Of a stretch of 35,624 nucleotides of DNA, positions 2,071-35,139 are shown piece after piece. The notes beneath the pieces are model-generated. The model was not told where the DNA came from. It searched no databases and was given only the letters and a program-made list of their open reading frames with translations. This DNA comes from a virus, in IMG/VR virus record IMGVR_UViG_3300025687_000150, positions 1-35,624 of that record; one strand, given 5' to 3'. The translations under genes and the position numbers were made by a program. Numbering within the stretch: position 1 is the stretch's first letter; each line of letters opens with the position of its first letter.

Positions 2071-2342
2071 TTTTTATTCTTTCTCCTTTTAAGTCTTTTA
2101 ATAATTTGAAATTCAAATATTTCAAAAGGTTCTTTGAAATGTTCTTCTTCTAATGGTACACCTGCTTCTATTACTTTTTCAAATTCTTTTCTATCAATCA
2201 TAACTCCGTAGAAACCTTTTCCGATCAAAGAAGAATCTTTATGAACTTTTATCTTGCAAGTAACACCACAAAAAAGCTTAACCAAATAAACATGCCCCCG
2301 CTTAAAGCGGGGGTCAAATCCATAATTACTACTCAATTTCAC
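2067..2342 (-). CDS. Small conserved-type protein of unknown function (GTG start)
   Basis: The 91-residue protein is not recognised. It is basic at the C-terminus (a run of K/R over the last ten residues) and appears to be a small beta-rich fold. The only in-frame start that keeps the N-terminal part is a GTG overlapping the last four codons and stop of the deoxyribosyltransferase gene; a TTG two codons later is the alternative. No strong Shine-Dalgarno sequence precedes either. Codons 10-16 lie inside a strong GC-rich hairpin (2295-2313), which is unusual for this AT-rich genome and may limit expression or act as a weak terminator for the upstream gene. The stop overlaps the epimerase start as ATGA, which supports translation of the frame. 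Confidence 0.6.
   Translation of the reverse strand: MKLSSNYGFDPRFKRGHVYLVKLFCGVTCKIKVHKDSSLIGKGFYGVMIDRKEFEKVIEAGVPLEEEHFKEPFEIFEFQIIKRLKRRKNKK
2295..2313 (-). terminator. GC-rich hairpin, possible weak terminator/attenuator
   Basis: An 8-bp perfect stem (CCCCCGCT/AGCGGGGG) with a 3-base loop lies just after the stop of the deoxyribosyltransferase gene and inside the start of the next frame. Its CCCGCTTTAAGCGGG core is identical to the terminator after the ClpP-like gene. It is not followed by a proper T-run (GCATGTTTATTTGG), so termination would be weak. Attenuation or translational control are alternatives. Confidence 0.35.
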
Positions 2343-2778
2343 CTTGATAGCGTTCAGTAATCAATCGTCCTTCAGAGACACACCGACTCAAATAATCATC
2401 TAATTCATCAAGAGAACGACACACTTTAATACCACTAGCTGCTAGCATTAAATTGAATTGAGCTCCAGCAGGTAAACCATCGCAGAAATAGACAATAGGC
2501 TTTTCCAGACAATTGAAATAACCTGCTTCAAATATTGTTCCCATATCTTTGTTACGAGTATTACAAAGCAACCAATCAGATGAATGTAAGTGTTTAATGT
2601 TACCTGCAAAGATTTGATCTTGCATTGAATCAGATGCATCATTATCACATAGATTTTCATCTTTTGGTGAGAAGTATGTAATTCCATGTTTCTCAAATAC
2701 AGACTTAATGTTTTCTACTTCTTGCAGCCACTCTGGATTAAACCAACCGCTAGCTAAATAAACTTTTCCTAAACTCAT
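2329..2778 (-). CDS. Nucleoside 2-deoxyribosyltransferase
   Basis: The 149-residue protein matches the nucleoside 2-deoxyribosyltransferase family in length and motifs. The N-terminal KVYLASGWF carries the substrate-binding loop, and SSDWLLCNTR is followed by DMGTIFEAGY (residues 78-87) with E84 as the expected nucleophile. KPIVYF (93-98) is the usual last core strand. These enzymes exchange bases between deoxynucleosides or hydrolyse deoxynucleotides, feeding base salvage. The start ATG has AAGGG about nine bases upstream and lies just past the stop of the ThyX-like gene, so the two dTMP/deoxynucleoside genes form one unit. Specificity (purine, pyrimidine or dCMP-type hydrolase) cannot be read from the sequence. 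Confidence 0.85.
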   Translation of the reverse strand: MSLGKVYLASGWFNPEWLQEVENIKSVFEKHGITYFSPKDENLCDNDASDSMQDQIFAGNIKHLHSSDWLLCNTRNKDMGTIFEAGYFNCLEKPIVYFCDGLPAGAQFNLMLAASGIKVCRSLDELDDYLSRCVSEGRLITERYQGEIE

Positions 2779-2782
2779 GTTT

Positions 2783-3769
2783 TTATTCCCTTCCCATAAA
2801 TTTGTTATATTTCTCTGTTAGATCATTTATCTCATTTAAAGTTTCTTCCCAGAGCTGTGTAAATACAGTTACACTTCCTGGATTCTCTGTTCCATTGATA
2901 TCTTCACGACGAGATTGATAAATCGAATCATCAGGATGATATTCAAACAGATCGTTCTTAGGTTCTGGCCAGTACAGATTTGTACCGCGCGAAGTAAAGC
3001 CACCTTTACCATCAGGCACGCGGAAAGTTTTCACATAATGCATATCTGGTTTATTAAAATTTATCTTCGTTGACGCTTCTGGGAGAACTTTAATAACTTC
3101 GCGTGCCATATACGCTGCAAGTAAATTGTCAGCAGCAGGTTGAATTTGCATATCTTGTCGTTGTGCAATAAAACCTAGCAAGTCTTTAAGATTAAGACGC
3201 ATCAGATAAAAAGAAGTCATGCATTTTGGAAGAATCATTCGAGCATCCATCATTGACACTGCTTTTGAATCTGTCATATCAGCATACAGTTGCTTTGACT
3301 CTTGCACCAAACGAATCCATCGTTCAGAGAATTCAGGAGAATTTTCAACTGCTTCGGGAATAACAGCAACATCATCACGTAAATCACGATCACCAGTACA
3401 CTGTGCAGCAAAAGAACCAGCACGATGCCGGATAATATGTGTCACCTCTTGAAAAGAAAGCCCGCTTAGTTTAAATGTGAAACCGAGGCATTCCATTGGT
3501 GTGGGTAGCGCACGGTAATTAAGAACATCTTCAAGATTGGAAGAGAGTTCTTGCAAAGATGCTGTACTTGGATTTGTATCATCGTGATGATCAGCCCAAG
3601 TTGCTTTAACATATTGCCAAGCAACATTGAGTGCTTGTGAACGTGTAGGTGCGTCTACAAGCTCAACTTTAAGAGCTCTAAGATTATTGACAATTTCTGT
3701 TGATGGTGCTTGACCAAACTTTAACTTCATTGGTAATTCAACAGGTTTGAGATTCGGATTTTGTGGCAT
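2783..3769 (-). CDS. thyX: Divergent ThyX-like flavin-dependent thymidylate synthase
   Basis: The 328-residue protein is a ThyX homologue, longer than the usual 220-270. The family signature is at residues 114-124, where RHR is followed by seven residues and then Cys instead of the usual Ser (RHRx7S). The Asn of the canonical SxNE is also absent. DARMILP (175-181) and the L-x-x-F-x-x-x-R segment (residues 197-204) fit the conserved ARxxLP and FxxxR parts of the fold, which bind dUMP and FAD. The reaction expected for the family is methylenetetrahydrofolate-dependent conversion of dUMP to dTMP using FAD and NADPH. The altered signature could mean a divergent dTMP synthase or another pyrimidine modification. 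A good SD (AGGAG, five bases before the ATG) marks the start. The gene follows a terminator and precedes a deoxyribosyltransferase. Confidence 0.8.
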   Translation of the reverse strand: MPQNPNLKPVELPMKLKFGQAPSTEIVNNLRALKVELVDAPTRSQALNVAWQYVKATWADHHDDTNPSTASLQELSSNLEDVLNYRALPTPMECLGFTFKLSGLSFQEVTHIIRHRAGSFAAQCTGDRDLRDDVAVIPEAVENSPEFSERWIRLVQESKQLYADMTDSKAVSMMDARMILPKCMTSFYLMRLNLKDLLGFIAQRQDMQIQPAADNLLAAYMAREVIKVLPEASTKINFNKPDMHYVKTFRVPDGKGGFTSRGTNLYWPEPKNDLFEYHPDDSIYQSRREDINGTENPGSVTVFTQLWEETLNEINDLTEKYNKFMGRE

Positions 3770-3794
3770 TTATACTCCTGTTTTGTTAAACAAT

Positions 3795-3819: not shown

Positions 3820-3845
3820 TTTACAACTGTTATTAAATCTTTTAT

Positions 3846-4073: not shown

Positions 4074-4130
4074 TTTTATTGTCCTTTTATTTGAGTTGTT
4101 TAATTTTGTAGGATTGTTCCTTACCTTATT

Positions 4131-4159: not shown

Positions 4160-5036
4160 TGCCCTTGACTATATCTAAGTCTTTTTTAACAATTGCTTCA
4201 AAGTCTTCCCATTTCAAATCATTTCTAAGAAAAGGGATGACTTGTGCGACATCTTCGCCATATTTGTCTCTGATTTCTTGATAAGATTTACCTTGATGAT
4301 TTGCCATAATCAATGGATTTTCTTTTAAAGCAGCTGCTCTAACTGCGAATTCATCTACTGCTTTTTGATTATTTCCAGTCAGTGAGTTTTTATAGTCTTC
4401 TAACATTGATTTAATCAGTCCATGGGCATTTCTCTTATCAATTGAGTTATTTGTAAATCTCTTCTCTGAAATCCACTTTTCAATAATTTCATCATCTGTT
4501 AAATCTTTCAAATCTTTTCTCAAGATATTTTTAACTTCATCAGCGTTTAGTTTGTTCGAGCCTATAACGAATTTTATCAGATTGTTTTTTATGTGTCTAA
4601 CTTCATGATCGATTGTTCTTCCGTCACCTGCAATTGTGAAAATCTTTTGATTGATTACAATTCTTGGATTTTGAAAACTTTTATCCTTCCATGATTCTAA
4701 AGCTTTTTCAGATTCGTTATCGACCATCGCAGATCCTTCTGTAAATTTATCAGATGATACATTTCCTGACTCATCGACTACAACGTGAAGAGCATAGGCT
4801 TTTGTATTTTTAGCTCCGCCCTTTTCTTCTTCTATTAAAATCAATTGAATATTTGCAATGATTTGTTTTAACGCAGTTTTATTTTTATCACTCAAAAAGT
4901 TGATCTTGTCAATTTCTGACTTAACTTTTTCTTTTGATGAATCAAGCATTTCTTGATATTCTGACCTGCTTCTTTTTTTTGATTCAAAAAGAATATTTCT
5001 GATAAGCCTTCTAACTCTTTCTTCGGAAATAATCAT
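4140..5036 (-). CDS. Putative HExxH metalloprotease with N-terminal LRxLI-type tag
   Basis: The 298-residue protein has an HExxH motif, HEVRH (residues 144-148), inside a hydrophobic helix context, which is the signature of zincin metallopeptidases. A possible third zinc ligand is E229 in DEFAVRAAA, as in gluzincins, but the spacing is my guess. The N-terminus, ISEERVRRLIRNIL (residues 3-16), resembles a short peptide found at the C-termini of two other proteins in this window. A terminal tag of this sort could direct the protein into the virion. The start ATG directly follows the stop of the NTPase-HAD fusion, with GGAG seven bases upstream, so the genes are translationally linked. Alternatives are a non-enzymatic virion protein or toxin-like effector; family membership beyond HExxH is not established. 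Confidence 0.55.
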   Translation of the reverse strand: MIISEERVRRLIRNILFESKKRSRSEYQEMLDSSKEKVKSEIDKINFLSDKNKTALKQIIANIQLILIEEEKGGAKNTKAYALHVVVDESGNVSSDKFTEGSAMVDNESEKALESWKDKSFQNPRIVINQKIFTIAGDGRTIDHEVRHIKNNLIKFVIGSNKLNADEVKNILRKDLKDLTDDEIIEKWISEKRFTNNSIDKRNAHGLIKSMLEDYKNSLTGNNQKAVDEFAVRAAALKENPLIMANHQGKSYQEIRDKYGEDVAQVIPFLRNDLKWEDFEAIVKKDLDIVKGMQTLAV

Positions 5037-5981
5037 TTAGTTCTCCAATACTAAATTAATTATCTCCTTCGGGTCAGAATAAAAAGTTATATTTTCATGA
5101 GAAACAAAATCGTTGTATGTCTTTAAGGGAACCAAAGTTTTAATCCCATGTTTGGCATACTCTTCAATATGCTTTGGAGAATCATCAATCGCAAACTTAA
5201 TTGCTCCTGAATCATAAAACTCTGATTGTGCACACCATCTAAACTTTTCTGTACTAAAATCTATCGCATCAAAACAATCTGTCCACTTACTAATCCAGTC
5301 GTATGTATCATAAAGACATTTTAAATTTTCTTTAGGTCTTGCAGTTAGTAGTTGAATCCAGTAACCTTTTTTTCTTAAAGTTTTCAATGATTTCATAGAA
5401 TGTTTTACAACTTCTAGATTTTTAAATCCACCTGTCTTCAAAAACTCCATGAATATTTCTTCAGGATTCTCTTTGGAATTAGCTAAAGCTGTAATAAAAT
5501 AATACTCTTTAGAAGAAACTGATGCGTCGATATCTTTATATTTCTTAAGCCATTCAGAAAATCCATCTCTAAATTCTGCTAATACATCATCGACGTCTAC
5601 AATAATAACAGGCTGTCCTTCCCATCGTCTTTTTTCAAGTTTATTTCTAACATTGAGATAAACATCTTTTTCACAAAAAGCCTGAAGGAATTCCTTGTCG
5701 TTGATTTCCCATGTATTTAAAAGAGCAATAATATATCTGAAAGCATCAGCAGCTTCATACTTGAAGTTTGATATGTCAACCTCAGTATAACTTTTTGTGT
5801 GTGATTTAAAATTAATAGTGCTGATTAAAGAGCTTACTTCTTGATGTAAACATAAACCCAGCGTCTTAGAAATTTCTTCTTTTTCTTTAGAAGAAAAATC
5901 TTTGTATTTGCTACCGTAAACTTTTTTGTGAAATTTATCTTGAAGATCAAAGAAAAGTTCCAAGTCTGTTTTATACTTCAT
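5037..5981 (-). CDS. Fusion: all-alpha NTP pyrophosphatase-like domain + HAD 5'-nucleotidase-like domain
   Basis: The 314-residue protein has two parts. Residues 1-118 are all-alpha and align by eye with the neighbouring dUTPase_2/MazG-like protein: the ExxD metal motif is kept (E76-D79), but the first ExxE motif reads EVSS (E48-S51), so pyrophosphatase activity may be reduced. Residues 124-314 form a HAD-type hydrolase: DVDDV (129-133, motif I with nucleophile D129), LLTARP (211-216, motif II Thr213), K262, and AIDDS (264-268, motif IV acids). HAD proteins of this size in phages are often 5'(3')-deoxyribonucleotidases. A plausible combined role is stepwise removal of unwanted dNTPs or dNMPs; this is inference. 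The fusion reads straight through, without a frameshift or stop. Confidence 0.75.
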   Translation of the reverse strand: MKYKTDLELFFDLQDKFHKKVYGSKYKDFSSKEKEEISKTLGLCLHQEVSSLISTINFKSHTKSYTEVDISNFKYEAADAFRYIIALLNTWEINDKEFLQAFCEKDVYLNVRNKLEKRRWEGQPVIIVDVDDVLAEFRDGFSEWLKKYKDIDASVSSKEYYFITALANSKENPEEIFMEFLKTGGFKNLEVVKHSMKSLKTLRKKGYWIQLLTARPKENLKCLYDTYDWISKWTDCFDAIDFSTEKFRWCAQSEFYDSGAIKFAIDDSPKHIEEYAKHGIKTLVPLKTYNDFVSHENITFYSDPKEIINLVLEN

Positions 5982-5989
5982 TTCAAACC

Positions 5990-6376
5990 TTAGTATTTAT
6001 TTGTTACACGTTGATGAATTATTTTGTCTTTTTTAAGATATGCTTCAAAAAATTCTTCAGGAGAGCAATCAAGAGCTACGAGAAGTGCAAAGAAATAATT
6101 AAAAGCATCTACAACTTCTTCAAGAAAATTATCTCTATCGAATTCACTAATTTCTGTTACTCTATGAGTTTTCCAATTTTTCAAATGTTGAAGTGCCTCA
6201 AACATTTCTTCAACTCCACGCAAAGCCAGATCTCTACAATATTGTTGACTTTCTTTTGTTGTGACATCAACAGGAAAATTAGGTTGAGCATGAGGCATGA
6301 CTTCAAGCATTCTACTCATAAAATCATGCCTCATCTGAAAAATCTGATCTAATCTATCCTTCGACATTTTTTTCAT
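5990..6376 (-). CDS. All-alpha NTP pyrophosphatase (dUTPase_2/MazG-like)
   Basis: With the ATG start chosen here the protein has 128 residues. It carries both metal-binding motifs of the all-alpha NTP-PPase superfamily: ExxE (E57-E60 in VEEMFEAL) and ExxD (E87-D90 in LEEVVDAF). The KKDKxxxxR tail (115-123) fits the dimeric dUTPase/dCTPase subgroup. Expected chemistry is Mg-dependent hydrolysis of dUTP or another dNTP to dNMP and pyrophosphate, protecting phage DNA from uracil and giving dUMP to the ThyX-like enzyme. A TTG five codons upstream is an alternative start, but this ATG has a better-placed purine stretch. The gene overlaps the end of the 74-residue gene and is followed by a fusion protein with a related domain, indicating an old duplication. 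Confidence 0.75.
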   Translation of the reverse strand: MKKMSKDRLDQIFQMRHDFMSRMLEVMPHAQPNFPVDVTTKESQQYCRDLALRGVEEMFEALQHLKNWKTHRVTEISEFDRDNFLEEVVDAFNYFFALLVALDCSPEEFFEAYLKKDKIIHQRVTNKY

Positions 6377-6578
6377 TTTCAACTTTCTCAATAAACTCTT
6401 GAAGCTTTTTGATATTTTTTTCTGAAATGTCTGAATAAGCTTCAGTTAAATACAAATTGTCGTCTTCTCTTGTCTCTAACTCAATAAGTCTCAAGTTATC
6501 TACAACATCGGTGCCAGTAAGAATTGCAACTTGCAATTGTTTTGCAATTTCACCTATTACTTCATCTGATAATTTCAT
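6354..6578 (-). CDS. Small acidic protein of unknown function
   Basis: The protein has 74 residues, is acidic and appears mostly helical, with no domain I recognise. It has a clear SD (GAGG, five bases from the ATG), lies between the Fpg/Nei-type gene and the dUTPase-like gene, and overlaps the latter. It is therefore likely translated as part of the repair/nucleotide unit. Its helical pattern would allow a small adaptor or dimeric protein, but no function can be assigned. Confidence 0.65.
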   Translation of the reverse strand: MKLSDEVIGEIAKQLQVAILTGTDVVDNLRLIELETREDDNLYLTEAYSDISEKNIKKLQEFIEKVENEKNVEG

Positions 6579-6584
6579 TTTTCC

Positions 6585-7409
6585 TCACTTTTGTATTGAT
6601 GGAACCCAATGGGTTGTTCTCTTATCTTTTGTTGTTTCTTTTATGACCTCATTACCTTCAAGATCATACTTTTGATTATACACAGCAAACCTTCTACTAT
6701 ACAAACCTTTTTCACCATTTGAGTTTCTATAAGTTGAAATTGTTGCTCCGCCACTCTCATATGACTTTTTAGCAATTAACTGTGAAAAAAGAGCTAAAGA
6801 GTAAAGCTCTGTATCTGTTAAAGATGAAACAATTCTATGTGGTGAAACCTCAGCATGATACAATATTTCTGCTTTCAAATAATTCCCAACGCCTGAAACT
6901 AACGATTGATTCATTAAGTTTTCTGCTATTGTCTTTTTAGGTTTTTTTGTTATCCCTTTAACAAATTCGCTTCTAAATTTTTCAAAAGAATCAAACTCTC
7001 CTAAAACGTCTGTTCCTAGCGATGCAAGCTTTGTAGTTAATTCGCTAACAGAATTGACATACTTTAATGTCCCAAAATTTCTAATGTCGTTAAAATATAA
7101 TTTTTGATTATCACTAGTTGTGATAATGACTCGCGTATGTTTTGTTGAGTAACTTTGCCAAGCTCCACTCATTCCAAGAGTACACCACAGAGATGACATG
7201 TCATCAAAGAAAAAGTAAATAAACTTTCCTTTACAACTAATTTTTGAAACTCTAAGAGGTATCTCAAAAGACATGTCATTGTAACCTTGAAAAGGTCTTC
7301 CTTTTGAATATCTTCCCGATACTATCTCTATGTCTTTGATACGTTCATTATTTTTAAAAGCTGATTTGAGATAATCAACAGTTTTTTTAACTTCTGGTCC
7401 TTCAGGCAC
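6585..7409 (-). CDS. Fpg/Nei-family DNA glycosylase with zincless finger
   Basis: The protein has 274 residues, the normal length for the family. MPEGPE at the N-terminus gives the catalytic Pro2/Glu3 after Met removal, and Lys60 or Lys62 in CKGKF is the expected conserved lysine. The helix-two-turn-helix is GVGNYLKAEILY (173-184), close to the NEIL1/Nei style. The C-terminal finger ends RTTHWVPSIQ, where typical bacterial enzymes have RTTxxCPxCQ. All four zinc cysteines are missing while the Arg finger (R264) is kept, as in NEIL1 and the mimivirus Nei1 enzyme. The expected activity is excision of oxidised bases with beta/delta-elimination. The start is GTG with a strong SD (GAGGAGG) and overlaps the clpS stop by one base. 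Confidence 0.9.
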   Translation of the reverse strand: MPEGPEVKKTVDYLKSAFKNNERIKDIEIVSGRYSKGRPFQGYNDMSFEIPLRVSKISCKGKFIYFFFDDMSSLWCTLGMSGAWQSYSTKHTRVIITTSDNQKLYFNDIRNFGTLKYVNSVSELTTKLASLGTDVLGEFDSFEKFRSEFVKGITKKPKKTIAENLMNQSLVSGVGNYLKAEILYHAEVSPHRIVSSLTDTELYSLALFSQLIAKKSYESGGATISTYRNSNGEKGLYSRRFAVYNQKYDLEGNEVIKETTKDKRTTHWVPSIQK

Positions 7410-7747
7410 TATTCCTCCTCAAATGTTGCTAGCAAAGGATATCCTAACGTCTTTGCAATTGCAATTGTTTTTTCAGTTTTCGTCTCAGCAACTTCTTTAC
7501 TATACGGACCACCAGCTACTCCTCTACCTTTTTCGTGAACATCCATTGTAATTTCCCAAGCTGCGATATCGCTGTGATGGAAAACAGATACTAAAATTGA
7601 AGCAACTAGTTCCATCGGTGTAAAATCATCGTTATGAAAAAGTACTTTGTACTTCTTGGGTTTCTGATTTTCTTGACGAACTTCGTCCTTATCTAATAAA
7701 TCAACTCCACTGCCGCCTTTACTTGGCGTTTTCTTTTTCTGACTCAT
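7409..7747 (-). CDS. clpS: ClpS adaptor (N-degron recognition) homologue
   Basis: The 112-residue protein has a 30-residue polar N-terminus like the flexible tail of ClpS, then the full ClpS core: NDDFTPMELV (39-48) matches the NDDYTPMEFV motif, DVHEKGRG (69-76) contains His71, equivalent to E. coli His66, and KEVAETK (84-90) is the family hallmark. ClpS delivers proteins with N-terminal Leu, Phe, Tyr or Trp to ClpAP. The pocket Asp/Asp/His residues are kept, so N-degron binding is plausible. The start has AGGAG seven bases upstream and overlaps the MBD4-like gene by 29 bases. A ClpP-like protease is encoded elsewhere in the window, but no ClpA ATPase is visible, so the adaptor would presumably act on the host ClpA. 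Confidence 0.9.
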   Translation of the reverse strand: MSQKKKTPSKGGSGVDLLDKDEVRQENQKPKKYKVLFHNDDFTPMELVASILVSVFHHSDIAAWEITMDVHEKGRGVAGGPYSKEVAETKTEKTIAIAKTLGYPLLATFEEE

Positions 7748-8168
7748 TAAAATACTCCTTTAAAAAATTGTGATAATTTACTAAAGCGCCATCTTTGGGC
7801 TCTACGTTTCTCCAGTCTCCTAAACAAAATATACGATAAGCATCAGAAGCATACTTTCCTACGCCGTAGAGTACTGTTGGATTGTCTTTCCATTCCTTGT
7901 TGATAAAATCATTGGACATTCTTTTAAGTGCTCTAGAACGTCTTTCAGATAAGCCTAACGGACTTATTAACGCTATTAAGTCTTTTTCATTAGCGTTTAA
8001 AAGAGCTTTTGGTGTTGGCCATCTTTTGATTGTTTCCCAGAAATAGGGTTCTGCTGTCAATCTTTTTGTTAAGTTACAAAAGATGCAACAAACAAATATC
8101 TTCCATGGGTCGTCATAAATTTGTTCTTGTAAAAGCGTGTAAGGTGATTCAGGTGGTTTCCAATCCAT
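7719..8168 (-). CDS. MBD4-type thymine/uracil mismatch DNA glycosylase (HhH-GPD)
   Basis: The 149-residue protein is a compact HhH-GPD glycosylase. It follows the catalytic domain of vertebrate MBD4 nearly end to end: DDPWKIFVCCIFCNLT (19-34), SPLGL (69-73), the helix-hairpin-helix YGVGKYASDAYRIF (101-114), and VEPKD (122-126), where D126 matches the catalytic Asp of MBD4 (VHPED). It has no methyl-CpG-binding domain and no Fe-S cluster cysteines like those of MutY or EndoIII. MBD4 removes T or U opposite G. Here it would repair deaminated cytosine or 5-methylcytosine, or process modified DNA. A good SD (GGAGG) and a strong promoter-like element lie just upstream, so it heads a repair/proteolysis operon. 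Confidence 0.88.
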   Translation of the reverse strand: MDWKPPESPYTLLQEQIYDDPWKIFVCCIFCNLTKRLTAEPYFWETIKRWPTPKALLNANEKDLIALISPLGLSERRSRALKRMSNDFINKEWKDNPTVLYGVGKYASDAYRIFCLGDWRNVEPKDGALVNYHNFLKEYFNESEKENAK

Positions 8169-21160: not shown

Positions 21161-21763
21161 TTAACAAATTTCCATTTCAACTTTTACTTCCATGCTAAGT
21201 TTAGGAAGTCTAAGATGATTTGCTAAATTAAGTCTTTTAGCTTCTTCTGCTTCAATAAACCAGTCAGCTCTTCCTTTTTCTTGAACCATGTCCCAATAAA
21301 ACTTATCCGGATGCCCGGTATTTCTAGCCATCATTTGATAAACTTTTTCATTTAATCGATTGGCTTCTTCAGCAGAAGATTTTAACTCTTCAACTTTTCC
21401 TAAGGCACCTGAAGAGACATCATGAATCATAATTGTAGCATCTTTATCCATATACCGCATGCCTTCTTCTCCGAAACTAAAAAGAATTGCGCCACACGAC
21501 ATTGCTTTGCCTTCAACAATAGTAGCTACAGGCAATTCTGATTGTTTAATTGCACTAATCATTGCCATTAAAGAATAAACTTGACCACCATAACTGTCAA
21601 TTACAATTGGAATAATTGGTTGACCAGTATTATGTGCTAACCCCATTTGATAAATAAATTCTTTTGCACTATCCTCATCGAACTTATTAACTCTAATAAT
21701 AATTGGAGTTTTTCTCAGTTCTAATTCTTTGATTAAAGGTGAAACTTTTGATTTCCAGAGCAT
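21161..21763 (-). CDS. clpP: ClpP-like serine protease
   Basis: The 200-residue protein has the ClpP/crotonase-like fold signature. The catalytic triad is readable: Ser89 in GKAMSCGA (85-92), His114 in TIMIHD (110-115), and Asp167 in RADWFIEAEEA, which matches the Asp of the E. coli RDRFLSA segment. SYGGQVYSLMAM (57-68) is the conserved GG loop. It has no Clp ATPase beside it, so it would either use host ClpX/ClpA or act alone. Phages also use ClpP-like enzymes as prohead proteases, so that role is open; the absence of a portal or capsid gene nearby argues weakly against it. It is a one-gene unit with SD AAGGAAG and terminators on both sides. Confidence 0.88.
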   Translation of the reverse strand: MLWKSKVSPLIKELELRKTPIIIRVNKFDEDSAKEFIYQMGLAHNTGQPIIPIVIDSYGGQVYSLMAMISAIKQSELPVATIVEGKAMSCGAILFSFGEEGMRYMDKDATIMIHDVSSGALGKVEELKSSAEEANRLNEKVYQMMARNTGHPDKFYWDMVQEKGRADWFIEAEEAKRLNLANHLRLPKLSMEVKVEMEIC

Positions 21764-24413: not shown

Positions 24414-25805
24414 CTAAGACGGTTCTTCGTCTCTTATTTCTTTCCATTTTTGTTTTAACAAATTTTTTAAGTTTTGATTTTGAGCTTTAACAGCATCTCC
24501 TAACGTCATTTCATCAGCGTTTTCTAATATTGTTAATTTAGACATTGCTGTATTTATCTGTACTGGGAAAAGTATACCATCTCTACCCGCTCTGTTTTTT
24601 GCAACAAAAAGTCGACCGTAACCAGAAGATTTTTCTGTTGGTTTTCTTGATAGACTCAAAACAACATCTGCTACTTGAGCTTTACCATAAGCTTCAGACA
24701 TGTTTTCTAATCCTACAATATCAGATTTTGCAGATTCTCGATTGGCTTGTGATGCTGTCCATACTGGAATACTCATTTCCATCGCTAAATTACGTAACTC
24801 TTCATAAATTAATTTCAATTCATGTCGAAGGGAATCAAATTTTCGACTTGAACGCATAATATCTGCATAATCGATTACAATTAGCGAAGGCTTAAAATCT
24901 CTCATAGACAACTTTTCCAAGTGATTTCGTATTGTCATAACTGACGCAGTACCTGTCGGATACTCTTTAATAATTAGCCTTCCAAATTCAGAATTTTCGT
25001 ATTTTTCTAAAACTTTTTCTTTATTTTCTCGAACTTCTGAAGAACTTATGCCACACAAATGACTGTCATATCTAATACCTACTTGAGTCTCTGATAATTC
25101 AAAAGTATAGTGGACAACATTCTTACCTCTTTTAAGAGCTTCACATCCTACATGAACCAAAAAGTGAGATTTACCAACACCTGTTGGAGCTACAACAACT
25201 CCAATTTCACCCCTTCCTAATCCTCCGTTTAAGATATCCTGTCCATCGATTGGGCCTAATCCTGTGGGACATGTAATTCTATTAATAAGAGCAAATCGAG
25301 CCTCGAAATCTTCAAAGAAGTTATGTCCGACAGTATGTGGTTCACCCTTTGCAAGGGCATCTTTCATCAATCCAACGACAGAATCGTAATTTTCTGCTGC
25401 AATCATCTTAACAGCTTCTTCTAATGCTTGCTTAAGTGCTTGCTTTTTGCAAAAATCTAATGATTTCTCTTTAACAAAATCCAAATCTCCAATATTGGGA
25501 GATGCTTTCATGCGATGTAAGTAATCAATAATTTGATCTCTTAATATTCCATCATTCCCTTCGCGCAAATCATCTCTGATTATTGTTATAAGAAGTTGCA
25601 TTGTTGGAAAGTTCTTATATTTTCCGTAAAACTCAAAAAATCTTGTGCATAGATACTTCAAATATCTAACATCAAAATACTCAGGAGTCATCACTTCAGC
25701 CATTTGTGCTGCCCAGTTATGATCTGAAAGCAGTGATTGAAATATTTTCTCTTGAAATTCCTTACCGTAATGACTAAAGTAGCTAGTTCTTTGCAAACTA
25801 TTCAT
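24414..25805 (-). CDS. Replicative DnaB/gp41-like helicase
   Basis: The 463-residue protein is a RecA-fold hexameric helicase. Walker A is APTGVGKS (206-213) and Walker B is SLIVIDYADIM (around 305). The motif with Gln and Arg near SQANRES and the arginine-finger region before KNRAGRDGILFPV complete the fold. The N-terminal ~160 residues resemble a primase-interacting helical domain. It should unwind the lagging-strand template 5' to 3' together with a primase, which is not in this window. The start ATG overlaps the stop of the 5' nuclease gene (TAATG), with GAGGAA upstream. It belongs to the RecA-nuclease-helicase-RNR unit. Confidence 0.88.
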   Translation of the reverse strand: MNSLQRTSYFSHYGKEFQEKIFQSLLSDHNWAAQMAEVMTPEYFDVRYLKYLCTRFFEFYGKYKNFPTMQLLITIIRDDLREGNDGILRDQIIDYLHRMKASPNIGDLDFVKEKSLDFCKKQALKQALEEAVKMIAAENYDSVVGLMKDALAKGEPHTVGHNFFEDFEARFALINRITCPTGLGPIDGQDILNGGLGRGEIGVVVAPTGVGKSHFLVHVGCEALKRGKNVVHYTFELSETQVGIRYDSHLCGISSSEVRENKEKVLEKYENSEFGRLIIKEYPTGTASVMTIRNHLEKLSMRDFKPSLIVIDYADIMRSSRKFDSLRHELKLIYEELRNLAMEMSIPVWTASQANRESAKSDIVGLENMSEAYGKAQVADVVLSLSRKPTEKSSGYGRLFVAKNRAGRDGILFPVQINTAMSKLTILENADEMTLGDAVKAQNQNLKNLLKQKWKEIRDEEPS

Positions 25806-26749
25806 TAATTCCTCAAAAGTTTAAAGTTTAAAAAAGCTCTATCAATGTTCAAATTGTTAATGCCGTGGTTTAATAATAACCTAAGTGTACCCATTTTGTC
25901 AAAACTTAATTCACTATTTTCTAAAGAATATTTTATCTTCTCAACTTGTTCATGTGACACATTCTGAACATCTAAGTAAGTTAATCTCCAGTTTCTTTTA
26001 ATGAGCGTTTCACTTTTTAATATATTCTGAAATAATTTCTTTGTACTTGACTCACTTTTCAATTTATTGTCTTCAAAGAAATCTTCCAAATAATAATCAT
26101 CAGGAAGAATAAACTTTTCAAAGTTTTTAGCAAGCGTTTTAAAACCTGCTCCTTTGACTCCTGAAATATTATCTGATTTGTCACCTACAATAGACTTAGC
26201 TAGACAGTAATTCAAAGGATGAATATTATACCTCTCAATTACTTTTTTGTCATCAACTAAAGCCTTTAGAGTAGGTGACCAGATTTTTGTTCTTTCATCA
26301 ATTAATTGATAATAATCATGATCAGATGAAAGAATTAATTTGATATCATCTTTTCTAAGATATCTACACATAAAACCTATCGCATCATCTGCTTCACATT
26401 CTGAAACATACACTTGTTTGACAGGTACATTTTTAAATAAATTTATCAATAATTTAATTTGAAAGTTTCGATTATTTGTTGTGTCTGGAATATCATCGTA
26501 GTATCTATTTAACTTTTGAGGTTTGATATTCTTTTTGTAATCAGAATATATTCCTCTTTTTTTATTAGAGCCTCCTCCTTCCCAAACTATAACAACCTCA
26601 TCGGGTCTAAATCTTTCAGTAAGATTAGAAACTGAATAGAAAAAACCTACTACGCCGCCAATCTGCTCACCATTTTTTGACATTGCAGGATGAGCAACAT
26701 AATGTCTTATAAAGAGATTATAAGCATCAACAATCAAAACCTTTTTCAT
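25805..26749 (-). CDS. 5'-3' exonuclease/RNase H (T4 Rnh, FEN family)
   Basis: The 314-residue protein has the FEN/5'-nuclease acidic residues in order: D8 (LIVDAYN), ECEADDAIG (117-125, E119/D121/D122), SSDHDYYQ (141-148, D143/D145) and IVGDKSDNISGVKGAG with the helix-hairpin-helix. In the second strand the usual D of VVVFDG is a glutamate (VVIVWEGG), a conservative change. The enzyme removes RNA primers and short flaps from Okazaki fragments, as T4 RNase H does. It lies just after recA (three-base gap) with SD GAGGA and overlaps the helicase start. The role in replication is clear from family and neighbours. Confidence 0.88.
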   Translation of the reverse strand: MKKVLIVDAYNLFIRHYVAHPAMSKNGEQIGGVVGFFYSVSNLTERFRPDEVVIVWEGGGSNKKRGIYSDYKKNIKPQKLNRYYDDIPDTTNNRNFQIKLLINLFKNVPVKQVYVSECEADDAIGFMCRYLRKDDIKLILSSDHDYYQLIDERTKIWSPTLKALVDDKKVIERYNIHPLNYCLAKSIVGDKSDNISGVKGAGFKTLAKNFEKFILPDDYYLEDFFEDNKLKSESSTKKLFQNILKSETLIKRNWRLTYLDVQNVSHEQVEKIKYSLENSELSFDKMGTLRLLLNHGINNLNIDRAFLNFKLLRN

Positions 26750-26752
26750 TTA

Positions 26753-27949
26753 TTAATCCTCTGGATCAAAATCATCAATTGCCAAATGTTCTGAGAGTGA
26801 TTTCATTTCTTCATAAGATTCAGGATTAATATCAATTGATTCAGAACTCTTCATAACTTTTGTCATAGCTTTATCTAAAAGTTTGTGAATGTACTGGCCA
26901 TATTCATGATCATTAATAATTTCATGAAAGTCATTCTTTCTAAACTTTTTCTCCGCTATTACTTCTCCCGTTTCTTTGTCAACTACATTTAAATCTTTCC
27001 AACCTCCGTTACCTGAGACTGATATTATTAAACCGTCGACTTCTTCTTCACCATGTCTTCTTAATAAATCAAATATTTCTTCATGCTCAACAATTCCTTT
27101 TCCAAAATGAATTTGAAAATCTACTTTTCTAAACGGGGGAGCAACTTTATTCTTCACAGTCTTTGCCCAAACATGAATTCCTACTACATCGTCTCCATCT
27201 TTAATAGGTTGACCTGCTCCTAATTTGATACGAATAGAACTGTGAAAGGGAATTGCCTTTCCTCCAGGAGTTGTGTCAGGATCTCCATACATTACTCCAA
27301 TCTTTGTTCGAATCTGATTTAGAATAACAAATAATGAATTTGTCTGTCCAATCAAACCTGTAATCTTTCTCATGCCTTTTGAAATAGCACGAGCTTGCAG
27401 ACCAATTGATTCTTTATCGTAATCACCTAGTAATTCAGCTTTTGGAGAAGAAGCAGCAACTGAATCCCAGATAATAGTAATCGGAACATCTTTATCCAAA
27501 GCTTTTGCTTTTAAAATTGTCTTTTCAGCAATTTCTAAAACTTCCTCAGTACAGTGTGTATCAACATATACAAACCTCTTCGAAACATCAACACCAAGTG
27601 AACCCAGATTATCAACAGAGGTTGCGTTTTCAGTATCTATATAAACTATAATACCACCCATCTTCTGTGTACTACGCGCTATCTGAGTAGCTATATGCGA
27701 TTTACCAATCGAAGGAGGACCAAATATTTCTACAATACGTCCTTCAGGAAATCCACCGTCAGCTTTATTTGCGCAAATATAGTCCAATAACTTACTTCCA
27801 GTGCTAACCCATCTTTTAACATGAGTAGGACTTTCATCTTCAGCTAAATTATAAGCTACTCTAGATCCTTGCTCTTTGTTGAGAGACTTAATCAAATCTG
27901 AAGTGAAATCATCATTGTTTTCTATTACTTCTTTCTTTTTTTTTGGCAT
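26753..27949 (-). CDS. RecA/UvsX-type recombinase
   Basis: The 398-residue protein is a RecA-family strand-exchange ATPase. Walker A is GPPSIGKS (77-84), followed by IVYIDTENA, the Walker B-type strand ITIIWDSVAASSPKAEL, and the DNA-binding loop region NQIRTKIGVMYGDPDTTPGGKA, which matches the RecA L2-type NQxRxKxGVMFGxPxxxTGG. It should form filaments on single-stranded DNA coated by the SSB for recombination-dependent replication and repair. The ATG has GGGAG upstream and sits in a short leader with a 16-bp palindrome (27971-27986). It starts the four-gene replication unit that ends with the RNR. Confidence 0.9.
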   Translation of the reverse strand: MPKKKKEVIENNDDFTSDLIKSLNKEQGSRVAYNLAEDESPTHVKRWVSTGSKLLDYICANKADGGFPEGRIVEIFGPPSIGKSHIATQIARSTQKMGGIIVYIDTENATSVDNLGSLGVDVSKRFVYVDTHCTEEVLEIAEKTILKAKALDKDVPITIIWDSVAASSPKAELLGDYDKESIGLQARAISKGMRKITGLIGQTNSLFVILNQIRTKIGVMYGDPDTTPGGKAIPFHSSIRIKLGAGQPIKDGDDVVGIHVWAKTVKNKVAPPFRKVDFQIHFGKGIVEHEEIFDLLRRHGEEEVDGLIISVSGNGGWKDLNVVDKETGEVIAEKKFRKNDFHEIINDHEYGQYIHKLLDKAMTKVMKSSESIDINPESYEEMKSLSEHLAIDDFDPED

Positions 27950-29447: not shown

Positions 29448-30227
29448 TTACATCAAATCTGCAAACGCATCATCAATGTTATCATAAGAATCGCTAGAAT
29501 TACTATCAGTTTTACTAGAAGTTTTATTAGTATTTCCTGTTCCCCACTCAGTTCCTTCACTTTCTTCACCATCATCACCATTTAACCAGTTATTGACAAT
29601 GTCGGAAAGTTCTTCGTAAGTTTTAGAAGTAAACATAGATGAAACATCAGGAATGTTATTCAACCATTCTTTGATTTGATTTTTATCAGATGACAATGCA
29701 GTACTTTTACCTCGAGGAAGAACCTCAGTTTTAGCCCACTGTTGTCCTGGCTGCTTAGAGCAAATCACTTTGATATCTCGACCGTCAACGGGATCAGTAA
29801 TATCACCGTAATCTTCGTCGACCATCATTCCAAGCAGTTTCTGATAAACTGTTTTACCAAAGCCCCAGATTTGTACACCTTTGTCTTCTTCGCCACGGAC
29901 AATTACAGCTGCATAAACTCTCATGCTTGGGTATAGCTTTTTACAAAGTTCATAACTTTCTTTGCTGCCATCTTCTCGTAGTTTTCCAATTAATTCTTGA
30001 ACTGGATCTTTTTGCCCAAATTGAAATGGTGCAAGTAGACCACGTTGACCAGGAATATTGTAATAGAATTGAAGTTCTTTGAAAGGTTGACCATCATTGT
30101 CTGGGAATGAAATTAAACGAACAGTATGTTCTTCACCTTCAGTTGGCTTCCAGTTTGTATTTCTACTTTTAGTATTACCGCTTAAGCGTTCTAGTTTTCT
30201 CTTAATTGCATCAAAATCGATACCCAT
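29448..30227 (-). CDS. gp32-like single-stranded DNA-binding protein
   Basis: The 259-residue protein resembles T4 gp32 in layout: a basic N-terminal segment (IKRKLERLSG, 8-17), an OB-type core with EHTVRLISFP, the conserved RVYAAVIVRG and KTVYQKLLGM segments, and an acidic C-terminal tail (about 220-259) ending DDAFADLM, which in gp32 binds replisome partners. The Cys/His zinc motif of T4 gp32 is absent, as in several marine gp32-like proteins. It would coat single-stranded DNA and cooperate with the RecA/UvsX protein. The start has AGGAG eight bases upstream, and the leader carries an inverted repeat. Confidence 0.85.
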   Translation of the reverse strand: MGIDFDAIKRKLERLSGNTKSRNTNWKPTEGEEHTVRLISFPDNDGQPFKELQFYYNIPGQRGLLAPFQFGQKDPVQELIGKLREDGSKESYELCKKLYPSMRVYAAVIVRGEEDKGVQIWGFGKTVYQKLLGMMVDEDYGDITDPVDGRDIKVICSKQPGQQWAKTEVLPRGKSTALSSDKNQIKEWLNNIPDVSSMFTSKTYEELSDIVNNWLNGDDGEESEGTEWGTGNTNKTSSKTDSNSSDSYDNIDDAFADLM

Positions 30228-30312: not shown

Positions 30313-30735
30313 TTATTTGTTTTCAAAATTAATTTTATTTATTTCTTCAATTATTAATTTTCTTAAAGTCTTTCTATCTAAAACAAAACTCTCATTATAA
30401 ATGTTCATATCATTATAAAATTTTTTAGGATTTTTTGGAGAAGAAAGTGGACCGGTATAACCTGCAATTGCTCCTGCACCTGAAAATTCAGACATGTCTT
30501 CGTCTTCAGAATACTCATCTTCACTAATTAATAAATCTTCTGTGTTTTCGTCTTCTTCGTAATAATCCACTGGAACTGTCTGTTTTAAATTACTAGAAAA
30601 CTGATCATCAGCAGATCTTCTTGGAGAACCTGAGTAACCAGTTGTGTAAATTTGGTGAGGCTGCTGCGATGAAGGGCCCCCGCCAATCATCCCGTTACCC
30701 AGTGTTGTTCTATTTTCTTTAATTCTTTTTTTCAT
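30313..30735 (-). CDS. Small acidic, disordered protein with C-terminal LRKLI tag
   Basis: The 140-residue protein is mostly low-complexity. After a Lys/Arg start and a Gly/Ser/Gln region, residues ~58-84 are strongly acidic (YYEEDENTEDLL and SEDEYSEDEDMSE). They are followed by GAGAIAGYTGPLSSP (86-100) and a helical end, VLDRKTLRKLIIEEINKIN. The acidic stretch, GYxGP motif and LRKLI end are features also found in other proteins here. A small virion, scaffold-core or prohead-packaged protein is plausible, given the terminal peptide. The ATG overlaps the last codons of the polymerase gene and has no strong SD, so coupled translation is likely. Confidence 0.6.
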   Translation of the reverse strand: MKKRIKENRTTLGNGMIGGGPSSQQPHQIYTTGYSGSPRRSADDQFSSNLKQTVPVDYYEEDENTEDLLISEDEYSEDEDMSEFSGAGAIAGYTGPLSSPKNPKKFYNDMNIYNESFVLDRKTLRKLIIEEINKINFENK

Positions 30736-31768
30736 TTAAAATCTTGACACTTATCTGTGGTTTAGAATTAATTATGTCTTCAAACAGATATTTTCTATTT
30801 AAAATGTTCTGAGCATGTACTGGATGACAATCAATTATTAATGCATCATGAATAGTAGCAATTGGACGAAAATATTTTGAGTCTAATGATTGAATCAGAT
30901 TGTTATAAATATAAAAGCAATAATCTGCTGCAGTTGATTGAATATAATGATTCACAAAAGCATTACTTTTAAAAATTTTTCTTCCGTAATAATTTCTGAA
31001 GAAACCTTTGTCATTAAATTCACTTTGCAATTTTTCTTGTACTGATTCATATTCTAGAAATTCTTTTAATGATTTAGCCTCGTCATAATTCATTCCTGAA
31101 ACTTTTGATATTTTATTGATAGAAGCTCCATAGAGAGCTGATATGATTGCTAACTTACATTTTTTTCTTTCAAGTTTGTTATTAAATAGATCTTCATTTA
31201 AATTGTTATAAACATCATCGTAATCTTTACCTTTGATAATTTTAAAATAAAGAAAAGGTTCTAGCGACTTTAAGTCAATTTCTAATATTTTCCCATCTTT
31301 AAACTGAGACTGAAACTTATTTTTATCCTCAGCTTTCATTGTAAGGTAATTCAATCCTGACTTTATTGTCATTCTTCCAGTAACTGTTCCGTTTAGTTTG
31401 TACTCAGGTACTTCGATTATTTTATTATCTATTATATTATTTCTTAAAGAATTAATTAGATTAATTCTACTACTGAATATATTCAAATATTTAATATCTT
31501 CAGAGTTTATATTTTTAAGATTATTAATAATTTCTTTTTTTCTTGTTTCTATAATATTTTTATTTAGTATTCGATTCCATATAACTTCTTCTGAATTAAT
31601 AGATAACTCATTTAGAATATTTTTACAAATAATATTTAATTTTTTTTGAGTTAAGTTATTCAGCTCGAGTATGTGATCATATGATATTACAGAATTATTA
31701 ATTTCATTTATTTCATACTCAAAAGACTTTCTAAGACCTGAATATTCTTTATCTATTTTTATTTTCAT
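30719..31768 (-). CDS. Minimal family A DNA polymerase (Pol I-like palm/fingers only)
   Basis: The 349-residue protein has the core motifs of a Pol I polymerase domain in order: GTVTGRM (127-133, the TGR motif), EIDLKSLEP (163-171, motif A with D165 and E170), RKKCKLAIISALYGAS (201-216, O-helix with R201, K205 and Y213), Q/ST/AAD (275-282) and IHDAL (306-310, motif C with H307/D308). Compared with E. coli Pol I the residue at the 762 position is Ile209, and the motif C Glu is Ala309. No 3'-5' exonuclease domain or full thumb is present; the first ~120 residues are AT-rich-coded, lysine/asparagine-heavy helices. It could be a split polymerase partner or a specialised gap filler. The catalytic Asp pair is kept, so activity is plausible. 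Confidence 0.85.
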   Translation of the reverse strand: MKIKIDKEYSGLRKSFEYEINEINNSVISYDHILELNNLTQKKLNIICKNILNELSINSEEVIWNRILNKNIIETRKKEIINNLKNINSEDIKYLNIFSSRINLINSLRNNIIDNKIIEVPEYKLNGTVTGRMTIKSGLNYLTMKAEDKNKFQSQFKDGKILEIDLKSLEPFLYFKIIKGKDYDDVYNNLNEDLFNNKLERKKCKLAIISALYGASINKISKVSGMNYDEAKSLKEFLEYESVQEKLQSEFNDKGFFRNYYGRKIFKSNAFVNHYIQSTAADYCFYIYNNLIQSLDSKYFRPIATIHDALIIDCHPVHAQNILNRKYLFEDIINSKPQISVKILNEKKN

Positions 31769-31777
31769 TTTTACTCG

Positions 31778-34700
31778 TTAAACGTTAGGATTGGGATTAG
31801 GATTTTGTTCAATGTAGTCTTTTACAGCAGTTATTTTGTCTCTGAAAGGCTCTATCGCACCTTGACCGGTATAAGAAAGCGTCGCTGTAGTTTCAAATTT
31901 ACCTGCAGAGATATTGTGTGTCACAGAAACGCATGTATAGACATTGTCTAGAGTCGTTCCGGTATCAAAGTCAATATAGACATTGCTGGCTCTTTGAAGT
32001 AATGGTATTCCTTCACATGTTAAATTTACACTAGAAGGTACTAATTTTACATCTTTATAATCTTCTATTTCATTACCATTTGCATTGGAAGTAGCTGTCT
32101 GCTTTAAAGAGTTCAAAAGCAAAACGTTAGCAACACCCCCAGATGTATTTGAACTAACTGACAAACTTTTTATTGTTCCGGTTGAAGTTCCGTAAGTTAT
32201 ACTTGGATATACACTTTTAATTTTTTCTTTTATCTGTGCATTTGTTGCTTTTCTTCTTTTAATTACAATTCCTGATTCACTCTTAGATGAATCTACAACA
32301 TAATCTCCTCCCAATAAATTTGCTTGTCTTTCATCATCTGCATCAAAAGGTCTGGGAGAGTTTATGTAAAGATTTAAATCTTTGCTGGTGATTAAATCTT
32401 GAAGCACTTTTTCAGTCGGGCTTAGTATCGCTTCTTCGTCATATATGTGCACTCTGCAAATTACTTGCTCAACTTCTTCGGTCGTTTTATTTTGATTAAT
32501 CACAGGAAGTGTTTCGATAAACATTGAAAGATTTGGAGGAGTAAATTGTAATTTCGAAGGAGGTCCTGCTGTTTCTTGATAGACCCTTTTTAACTGTTCA
32601 GTAAAAGCAGAATTAGAAGCATCTATAGCTCCTTTTCTAATCTTTTGAGCTCTAATCTGAATGTTTTCTTCAGTTGATGACGTTCCTTCTTCTTTTAACT
32701 GTCTTTCTGCTTCTTCCTTATACTCATCAATAGATTTTGATGCCGTCATTTTTTGTAATTCAGCTGATTCACTCAGACCATAAACCGTTAAAGAATTATC
32801 TTTTATTATTTCTCTTTCTATTACACCTAAAAAAGAAGCAATTGTTAATGTCTTCGTTGATTCTTTCTCAAATAAAACTTGCTTTAATTTATCAATATCT
32901 ATCGGCATGCTAGCTGTTGTATGAATTCTTGCTCCGGCTGCTTGATGATTAATTGGATAATACATCATTTGAACCTCATCAAATCTTCCGGAAGAAACTA
33001 GTGAGTACCCTATAAATAGATCAAAAATAGCTCCTAAACTAATAGATACTGAATTTGCTTCAGGCTCAGCATCAATCAACTGAGTATCTCTCATATAAGG
33101 ATCGTTAGGGCCTGCTAATGTTTCTAATTTTGAAAATTTAGAAGAAAAAGCTTTTACTAGTAAATCCTTTTGCGTAGCTGAATCTAACTGTGTACCAATT
33201 GATTCTAAAATTGGAATTAAATCGTTGTCAGATATCTGTCCATCCTCAGATGAATTTAAAGTGCTCAGGAAATACTGCATTGTTTCAATTGAAACAACAG
33301 CATCTCCTCTTGCTTCGTCAATAATTTCTAAGGACGGTCTCACTTCAGAGAGTTGTCCTAAGTCAGCATCATCAGGAAGGTTAGTATAATCTTTACCAAT
33401 CCTACTTTCTAAAATTTCTTCCAGCCTTCCTTTGAAAAGTTTGATCGGTACATAGGGTCCGGATGCAGCAGGTATCGAAACAGATTCTTTGCCTCCTAAC
33501 GCTGCTAATTCAACTGTTATTTTGACAGTATTGTCTGATCCAAAGCTAAAGTTTGAAGATACTACATTAAATACTCCTACATCTCTAAGTGAGTCTAGAA
33601 ATTGACCAATCGGATTTTTGCTATTGATTCCTCCATCTGGATGGGTCCAACCGTATTCTATTAACATTTGAATTTTTCCAAAAGACTCAGTAGAAACAAG
33701 AGGCGCAACATCTGAAAGTCTAGATCTGTCGTGAAGAATTAAACTCAAACTAGCTCTTTTACTAGCAAATAATCCTTGACCTAAACCTGAAATTGATACT
33801 GAAAGACTTTCTAGAGTTAAAAAAGGAGCAATTGGCTCTAAAATATGACTTCCTCGAATAGAAGAATCTTCTGTCGATACAAAAGAATTTCTAATATTTG
33901 CATTAGAAAGAGTCGCAGGTGCTGTAAATATTTCCATCCCTGTATAATATCTGTTTTGTATATCACTTATTTTACTTTCTCCGACAATACTAACTGGTAT
34001 TGCTGTGGATATCCCAGCACCATCATTTAAAACAAAATTATTATCTTCTCCTCTTCTAATAAATCTCATATAAGAGACGTTATTCATTGTTCCTAGAGCT
34101 TTTTCGCGATTACCGTAGAATATTTTAAGATCAATAAAGGGTGCACATCTTGACATTTCAATAGGCGGTATTGCGTTAAAAAAAAGTGATAAAGCGTCTC
34201 CATTTCTTCCCGCGATTGAAAGAATTGAATCTCTAAAAACAATCGATCCCAAGCTAGGATTGTCTTTAGAAGGCGAATCTGGCTTTTTGTTAGCTAAAGA
34301 CTGATCGAATTTGCTAGGATCAGTTGAGGCGATCGCAAAAGCAGCAGGTGAGCCATCTTCGTTTTTTTTGTCTTCACTTTTTTTCAAAACAACATCACCC
34401 GCAGAAGGTAAAGTTGCTGTCTCGCTCATTTTAATGTCTGAAACAATCAGAGACCCTAAAGTGCCACCTGATCCTTCGTAATGGAATAACAAACTTTTGC
34501 TAATTTTTTCTTCTGCAACTGATTCTTCTCCTGTAGTAATACTAGGAATCCAACTAAAAAATTTAGTAATAGGATCAACTTGAAATGCAGTGCCGTCGAC
34601 AATGTCTTTCATAAAATACGCGCCGTTTGCCGTGTCTAAAAGCTTACTTACATAAATTGAATTTGTCGTGTCTTTTAGTTTATCATTTGCTGTGCTTGTT

Positions 34701-34849
34701 ATTTCCTTCGAATCTGCTAAGCTTTTTAGAGAAGTTTGAAAAAGTTCATTATCTTTTCCAATTCCCGTAATATATCCCTTGAATTGATTTAGAATAAATT
34801 CAGCAAACTTTGATCGAGTTTCTCTATTCGTAATGCTAGACATACTCAC
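31778..34849 (-). CDS. Large baseplate/tail structural protein
   Basis: The 1023-residue protein is not clearly matched to one named family. Residues ~340-475 include a recognisable phage-tail segment with LESLSVSISGLGQGL, LSLILHDRSR, IQMLIEYGWTHPDGG, and SSNFSFGSDNTVKITVEL, a wording common in baseplate-type proteins of marine myoviruses (from memory). The C-terminal part (VNLTCEGIPLLQRASNVYIDF and VSVTHNISAGKFETTATLSY) resembles the late-control/hub type of baseplate domain. The gene starts at GTG with AGGTGA upstream, or at an ATG two codons later, and overlaps the gp53-like gene by four bases. Its place between the LysM baseplate gene and the polymerase fits a baseplate hub or wedge. Confidence 0.65.
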   Translation of the reverse strand: MSMSSITNRETRSKFAEFILNQFKGYITGIGKDNELFQTSLKSLADSKEITSTANDKLKDTTNSIYVSKLLDTANGAYFMKDIVDGTAFQVDPITKFFSWIPSITTGEESVAEEKISKSLLFHYEGSGGTLGSLIVSDIKMSETATLPSAGDVVLKKSEDKKNEDGSPAAFAIASTDPSKFDQSLANKKPDSPSKDNPSLGSIVFRDSILSIAGRNGDALSLFFNAIPPIEMSRCAPFIDLKIFYGNREKALGTMNNVSYMRFIRRGEDNNFVLNDGAGISTAIPVSIVGESKISDIQNRYYTGMEIFTAPATLSNANIRNSFVSTEDSSIRGSHILEPIAPFLTLESLSVSISGLGQGLFASKRASLSLILHDRSRLSDVAPLVSTESFGKIQMLIEYGWTHPDGGINSKNPIGQFLDSLRDVGVFNVVSSNFSFGSDNTVKITVELAALGGKESVSIPAASGPYVPIKLFKGRLEEILESRIGKDYTNLPDDADLGQLSEVRPSLEIIDEARGDAVVSIETMQYFLSTLNSSEDGQISDNDLIPILESIGTQLDSATQKDLLVKAFSSKFSKLETLAGPNDPYMRDTQLIDAEPEANSVSISLGAIFDLFIGYSLVSSGRFDEVQMMYYPINHQAAGARIHTTASMPIDIDKLKQVLFEKESTKTLTIASFLGVIEREIIKDNSLTVYGLSESAELQKMTASKSIDEYKEEAERQLKEEGTSSTEENIQIRAQKIRKGAIDASNSAFTEQLKRVYQETAGPPSKLQFTPPNLSMFIETLPVINQNKTTEEVEQVICRVHIYDEEAILSPTEKVLQDLITSKDLNLYINSPRPFDADDERQANLLGGDYVVDSSKSESGIVIKRRKATNAQIKEKIKSVYPSITYGTSTGTIKSLSVSSNTSGGVANVLLLNSLKQTATSNANGNEIEDYKDVKLVPSSVNLTCEGIPLLQRASNVYIDFDTGTTLDNVYTCVSVTHNISAGKFETTATLSYTGQGAIEPFRDKITAVKDYIEQNPNPNPNV

Positions 34850-35139
34850 GTGATCACCTGATAAACTTGTCCTATGTCATAAGGTATTCTAATAACTGTT
34901 CCAGGAGGTACTTGTAACCCCCAACCAATTCCACTCGCAGCTGCTATCACCCACCATAAACTGCTATTACCGTAAAACTCTCCAGCAAAGTGATCTAGTC
35001 GCTGCCCCTCTTCTAGTATTAAAGTTGTTACTCTCAAGTTTCCTGAAAGCACAGCATCAAATATTTTTTTACTATTTCTTGTTGTTCCATATCGTAAAGA
35101 TCCAATTTTCTTTACGAAAGTGTATCTTGACATTGACAT
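34846..35139 (-). CDS. Baseplate wedge protein with LysM-like domain (gp53-like)
   Basis: The 97-residue protein has a C-terminal LysM/tail-protein-X type segment: LILEEGQRLDHFAGEFYGN (41-59), SSLWWVIAAAS (59-69) and LQVPPGTVIRIP (75-86). The same wording (RLDxLAxxxYGDxxLWWVIAxAN, then VPxGTxLxIP) occurs in T4 gp53-related baseplate wedge proteins and phage tail X proteins. It likely helps to hold the baseplate periphery together. The ATG overlaps the preceding stop (TAATG) and the stop overlaps the next gene, so the three structural genes form one unit. The N-terminal 40 residues are variable. Confidence 0.82.
   Translation of the reverse strand: MSMSRYTFVKKIGSLRYGTTRNSKKIFDAVLSGNLRVTTLILEEGQRLDHFAGEFYGNSSLWWVIAAASGIGWGLQVPPGTVIRIPYDIGQVYQVIT

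Follow-up and report, generated by a model that had tools for sequence, protein, structure and literature searches.

The 35.6-kb IMG/VR fragment analyzed here (in the following the window) carries a reading frame of only 349 residues in which the motifs of DNA polymerase I can be recognized. This raises the question whether such a short protein is a true polymerase and, if so, which task it has in the phage. The initial annotation had offered three options, a split polymerase, a specialized gap filler or a reduced replicative enzyme.

The product is a very small Pol I-type polymerase

The protein (P0001) consists of the palm and fingers regions and contains all catalytic motifs of the family A polymerases. 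The TGR motif, motif A, the O-helix and motif C with the catalytic Asp165 and Asp308 are all found as annotated (Table 1), and an alignment with the relatives described below confirmed that Ile209 occupies the 762 position and that motif C reads HDA. Further residues of the catalytic set are E170 and Q277, and the equivalent of Gly763 is Ser210.

P0001 matches the Pfam model DNA_pol_A (PF00476) with 3.1e-8 and 33.4 bits in hmmscan (cut-off 34.3), and when the genome was searched with PF00476 it scored 34.3 bits, over the cut-off. PHROG 17 (phrog_17, "DNA polymerase") is matched at 5.8e-15. A profile built from 75 relatives found Aquifex Pol I (8jrb) at 3.9e-16 in an hmmsearch against solved chains and also matched many Klenow, Taq and Bst chains; 75/75 aligned members of the small PolA family match PF00476 at E up to 0.01. 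Judged by these sequence comparisons, the similarity to family A polymerases lies far above chance level.

The AlphaFold2 model, calculated on the alignment of the relatives, has a mean pLDDT of 94.8 and a pTM of 0.92, and Foldseek places it with Pol I structures at 1.5e-11. The fold prediction, proposed earlier as a check, thus returned the palm/fingers fold of Pol I, and the alignment placed neither a Phe, Tyr or Leu at the 762 position of P0001 nor an intact HDE elsewhere in it. A 388-aa relative was modeled independently (pLDDT 91.7), and its core superimposes on Taq and Bst fragments with an rmsd of about 4 Å over about 285 columns (Foldseek). One of the best matches in the PDB, both in sequence and in fold, is human Pol nu. 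Just 129 residues precede the TGR motif of P0001, and the thumb seems to be very short; the helices 70-85 and 89-106 of the model could represent such a short thumb. A thumb of this size would put the grip on the DNA and the processivity in doubt.

The model for the 3′–5′ exonuclease (PF01612) does not match P0001, in agreement with the annotated absence of an exonuclease domain, and over seven records it gave nothing above the cut-off and two sub-threshold matches, both in G003. The 5′–3′ exonuclease domain is not fused to the N-terminus of P0001. It is encoded on its own, some 4 kb downstream of the polymerase gene, and the gene product matches full Pol I models best, in their residues 1-263. 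With this separate 5′ nuclease of Pol I type, the functions of Pol I are spread over two genes, without a proofreading domain. The option of a split polymerase therefore holds only in a restricted sense, for the 5′–3′ nuclease; a separate 3′–5′ exonuclease or thumb protein was not found. We conclude that the reading frame encodes a genuine, very small Pol I-type DNA polymerase.

Conservation and variation among the relatives

Relatives were searched for by way of the neighboring DnaB, then with PF00476 and P0001 in the records found and then with an alignment search, which confirmed 244 relatives. The best 80 of these were kept and yielded 78 non-redundant proteins, which are 334-424 aa long except for two pieces at contig edges. 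The residues D165, E170, R201, K205, Q277, H307 and D308 are invariant in 78/78 sequences; motif A and the Q277 helix had been used as search patterns, so that the invariance there is partly by construction; neither motif C nor the O-helix served as a pattern. Y213 is kept in 76/78 relatives.

The 762 position is occupied by Leu in 50, Ile in 22, Phe in 4 and Met in 2 of the 78 relatives. Ile762 does not occur in the ten phage PolAs used as yardsticks; it is not a singular substitution, however, but one of several hydrophobic residues at this position in the family. The residue following HD is never Glu among the 78 relatives. We considered whether HDA indicates lost or altered catalysis and rejected this, because HDA, HDS and HDQ also occur in full-length phage PolAs. 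The ten yardsticks carry HDA (Acinetobacter APK128 and Vibrio SIO-2, both full-length), HDS, HDQ or HDE, and the third residue of motif C can therefore vary freely in phage enzymes. Thus the weight that had been placed on HDA was misplaced.

In six close pairs dN/dS ranges from 0.06 to 0.16, and the family is thus under purifying selection; the pair formed by the window and L002 is too similar for an informative value. The 78 relatives of like size, the fixed synteny and these dN/dS values rule out a pseudogene or an assembly fragment. In the tree the window falls into a grouping of 33 rows (up to the outgroup) with mostly proteins of about 350 aa, and the adjoining clade of 45 rows contains mostly proteins of about 400 aa. 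When six family members were compared by tblastn with 50,697 phage records, no match covered 80% of the query. The phages that share the small PolA family form a large aquatic group, most of it uncultured.

The gene neighborhood is conserved

In the relatives, which come from IMG/VR contigs, the genes follow each other on one strand in the fixed order baseplate, small PolA, SSB, RecA, Pol I-type 5′–3′ exonuclease and DnaB, and an RNR homologue was found on the same strand and in the same order in 5/5 relatives with enough sequence. The baseplate and replication genes of these phages are T4-like. The placement of P0001 between baseplate genes and the SSB gene had been annotated correctly, apart from an unmentioned gene for an acidic protein that intervenes before the SSB gene. 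The homologues of this protein have 85-583 aa and are often longer, and they are encoded at the same or a near place in most, not all, relatives.

Table 1. Features of the window; for the neighboring genes, fractions of relatives refer to homologues in the cassette, with only those relatives in the denominator that have enough sequence
Feature	Position	Strand	Remarks
Small family A DNA polymerase (P0001)	30719..31768	-	349 aa, ATG start
TGR motif, residues 130-132	31373..31381	-	T in 76/78, G and R in 77/78 relatives
Motif A from D165 (DLKSLEP)	31256..31276	-	D165, E170 and P171 in 78/78 relatives (motif A was a search pattern)
O-helix R201...K205...I209-S210...Y213-G214	31127..31168	-	Ile209 = 762 position
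Motif C, H307-D308-A309	30842..30850	-	Third residue Ala in 67, Ser in 9, Cys in 1 and Asn in 1 of 78 relatives
Baseplate-wedge-like gene	34846-35139		Precedes the 1023-aa gene
1023-aa gene directly upstream of PolA	31778..34849	-	No family match alone; homologue in 53/53 relatives
140-aa acidic protein gene	30313..30735	-	Between PolA and SSB; 17-nt overlap with the 3′ end of PolA
gp32-like single-strand binding protein (SSB)	29448..30227	-	59/59 relatives
RecA/UvsX-type recombinase	26753..27949	-	54/54 relatives
Separate 5′–3′ exonuclease, Pol I N-terminal-domain type	25805..26749	-	314 aa; 42/42 relatives
DnaB-type replicative helicase	24414..25805	-	33/33 relatives
ThyX and nucleoside deoxyribosyltransferase pair	2329..3769	-	

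Outside the cassette the window encodes two glycosylases, Fpg and a short HhH-GPD/MutY-like protein, at 6585-7409 and 7719-8168. Base-excision repair as a universal role was considered and rejected, since an Fpg-type H2TH is found in only 8/16 records searched. The window also encodes a ClpS adaptor and a ClpP-like protease (7409-7747 and 21161-21763), and in many relatives ClpP adjoins the RNR gene. One relative (L120 / L095) lies on a 109-kb contig that binning had assigned to a Halobacteriovorax MAG; this assignment may hint at a predatory bacterium as host or may be a binning error. No RNA element reached the Rfam gathering score in the window or in two relatives.

The main replicase

The records G011, G012 and G014 and 11/30 larger records encode a Pol III alpha of the DnaE type, about 1200 aa in length. 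It combines PHP, palm, finger and helix-hairpin-helix domains with the motif PDID[ST]D and lies 14-36 kb downstream of the PolA gene. Every record that continues for 35 kb or more downstream of PolA contains DnaE (11/11), as does G011 with 18.5 kb. Where DnaE is missing, the downstream part of the record never exceeds 32 kb. The window, with 31 kb, itself ends before the DnaE point, and the claim of a DnaE rests on the relatives. The ThyX and the deoxyribosyltransferase of the window are 90% and 95% identical, respectively, to those of L143, in which DnaE comes directly next. This match of the neighborhood, together with the DnaE in every sufficiently long relative, leads to the strong prediction, which is not an observation, that the DnaE counterpart of the window's phage would lie past the left end of the record. 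A search for overlapping contigs with the left-end gene of the window as query found none.

There is one polA gene per record (18/18 records), which rules out a full-length PolA elsewhere in these records. A second polymerase of family B, for which a search had been advised, was not found in the seven records searched.

In L143 the DnaE gene is in two pieces (1880-6801), as it is in L173, L174 and L147. Between the pieces of L143 there is an overlapping 329-aa ORF with a weak match to DUF559 (endonuclease-like), and Rfam at gathering scores did not detect an intron in L143 or L173.

An ATP-type DNA ligase is encoded in only 2/11 DnaE-bearing records, an NAD-type ligase was not found in 11 records and a beta clamp not in 14 records. 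With few ligases and no clamp found, these phages would have to rely on proteins of the host or on divergent versions of their own.

Distant homologues with other replicases

The same cassette is found in Microcystis phage Mel-JY01, which has an unannotated 408-aa homologue (WWT39333; L132:13552-14778) and a PolB, in Flavobacterium phage immuto, where gp001 is a 441-aa "DNA polymerase family A" (L133:1-1326), and in LR756508 (small PolA homologue at L134:9338-10708). Phage immuto also encodes a separate PolA of 777 aa, and this PolA matches PF01612. The three homologues share with P0001 the place in the SSB–RecA–5′ exonuclease–DnaB cassette and both catalytic Asp. Unlike P0001 they belong to a second, divergent subfamily with His, Tyr and Tyr at the E710, R754 and H881 positions, and these coordinated exchanges possibly alter nucleotide selection or activity. 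The N-terminal 110 residues of immuto gp001 resemble an inactivated exonuclease domain, which is an impression only; Pfam returned no match.

Since Mel-JY01 has a PolB and immuto a full-length PolA, the cassette persists while the main replicase changes. We give about even odds to the proposal that Pol I was reduced in these aquatic phages to a stand-alone polymerase of palm and fingers, accompanied by a separate 5′ nuclease and lacking proofreading, and that this pair is held in a fixed cassette while DnaE, PolB and full-length PolA exchange around it.

Role of the small polymerase

We propose, with a probability of about 0.6, that P0001 is a conserved, pared-down accessory polymerase that shares the tasks of Pol I with the 5′ nuclease, alongside a DnaE replicase. 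The genome would be copied by DnaE, and the 5′ nuclease and the small polymerase would remove RNA primers and fill gaps on the lagging strand. The small polymerase would also fill repair or recombination gaps on SSB-coated DNA, and nicks would be sealed by a host or phage ligase. As the patches would be short, proofreading could be dispensed with. The comparisons give good support to the accessory role, and the exact pathway we infer. Points that count against the proposal are that the window itself contains no DnaE, that few ligases and no clamp were found in the relatives, that the thumb seems very short and that the Fpg-type glycosylase accompanies the small PolA in only some relatives. Of the three options offered initially, a specialized gap filler is the best fit as the relatives carry a DnaE replicase.

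The main rival to gap filling is recombination repair or lesion bypass. The small PolA would then extend D-loops made with RecA and SSB or copy damaged DNA, like Pol nu or Pol theta, and would not take part in Okazaki maturation. SSB and RecA adjoin the small PolA in every relative, the proofreading domain is absent, human Pol nu stands among the best matches and the window contains the Fpg and HhH-GPD glycosylases, all of which would suit such an enzyme. The glycosylases are, however, inconstant among the relatives, and the Pol I-type 5′ nuclease is just as constant (42/42) as SSB and RecA and points to the processing of nicks or gaps. We therefore consider this explanation possible but rather doubtful.

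From the window and from many partial records, in which the small PolA is the sole polymerase, one could conclude that it serves the phage as a reduced main replicase. Every record long enough to show DnaE does contain DnaE, however, the cassette goes with PolB or a full-length PolA in other lineages, and the small PolA has no proofreading domain and apparently little thumb, so that the reduced replicative enzyme of the initial annotation is highly improbable. A catalytically weak or dead relic that has only a structural function, such as keeping the 5′ nuclease or SSB in place at the fork, would agree with the altered Gly763 and Glu883 positions and with the His, Tyr and Tyr of the three distant homologues, but is very unlikely given that both catalytic Asp and the equivalents of Glu710, Arg754, Lys758, Gln849 and His881 are kept in 78/78 family sequences and that HDA also occurs in the PolAs of APK128 and SIO-2.

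Relation to known polymerases and implications

With bacterial Pol I/Klenow (PF00476) P0001 shares the palm/fingers fold, the TGR motif, motifs A, B and C, the catalytic Asp pair, the equivalents of Arg754, Lys758, Tyr766, Gln849 and His881 and a Pol I-type 5′ nuclease encoded nearby. It differs in its length of 349 aa, in having the 5′ nuclease in a separate gene and no 3′–5′ exonuclease domain, in an N-terminal/thumb region that seems very short and in Ile762, Ser763 and HDA instead of HDE.

Virioplankton PolAs have been grouped by residue 762 into Tyr762, Phe762 I and II and Leu762 I and II (PMC6302109). These are, like the small PolAs, family A polymerases of phages from aquatic viral communities, and most members of the small PolA family carry Leu762. 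The window differs from these groups by its Ile762 (22/78 in the family) in place of Phe, Tyr or Leu; isoleucine is nowhere mentioned in this main paper on 762 typing. The small PolAs differ by their neighbors DnaB, RecA, SSB, RNR and a distant DnaE.

A survey of jumbo phages describes DnaE-type replicases and, in group 2.2, a minimal split Pol III alpha beside PolB (PMC7824862, section 3.4.1); a minimal PolA beside DnaE is not described in that section. The phages of group 2.2 resemble the small PolA phages in that a reduced second polymerase accompanies the main replicase of a large phage. In group 2.2, however, a family C enzyme is reduced and PolB is the replicase, whereas in the small PolA phages the reduced enzyme belongs to family A and the replicase is DnaE. 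Our literature search found no paper describing the small PolA family, which is weak evidence as its coverage was incomplete.

The small PolAs add to family A a compact, conserved and proofreading-free branch of at least 78 distinct sequences. Their occurrence suggests a bacterial-style division of labor from the phage's own genes, in which DnaE copies and the equivalent of Pol I patches. They also caution that finding polA in a metagenome, or typing its residue 762, does not necessarily reveal the main replicase. With a length of about 350 aa and seemingly little thumb, such a natural enzyme would also be useful for probing the purpose of the thumb.
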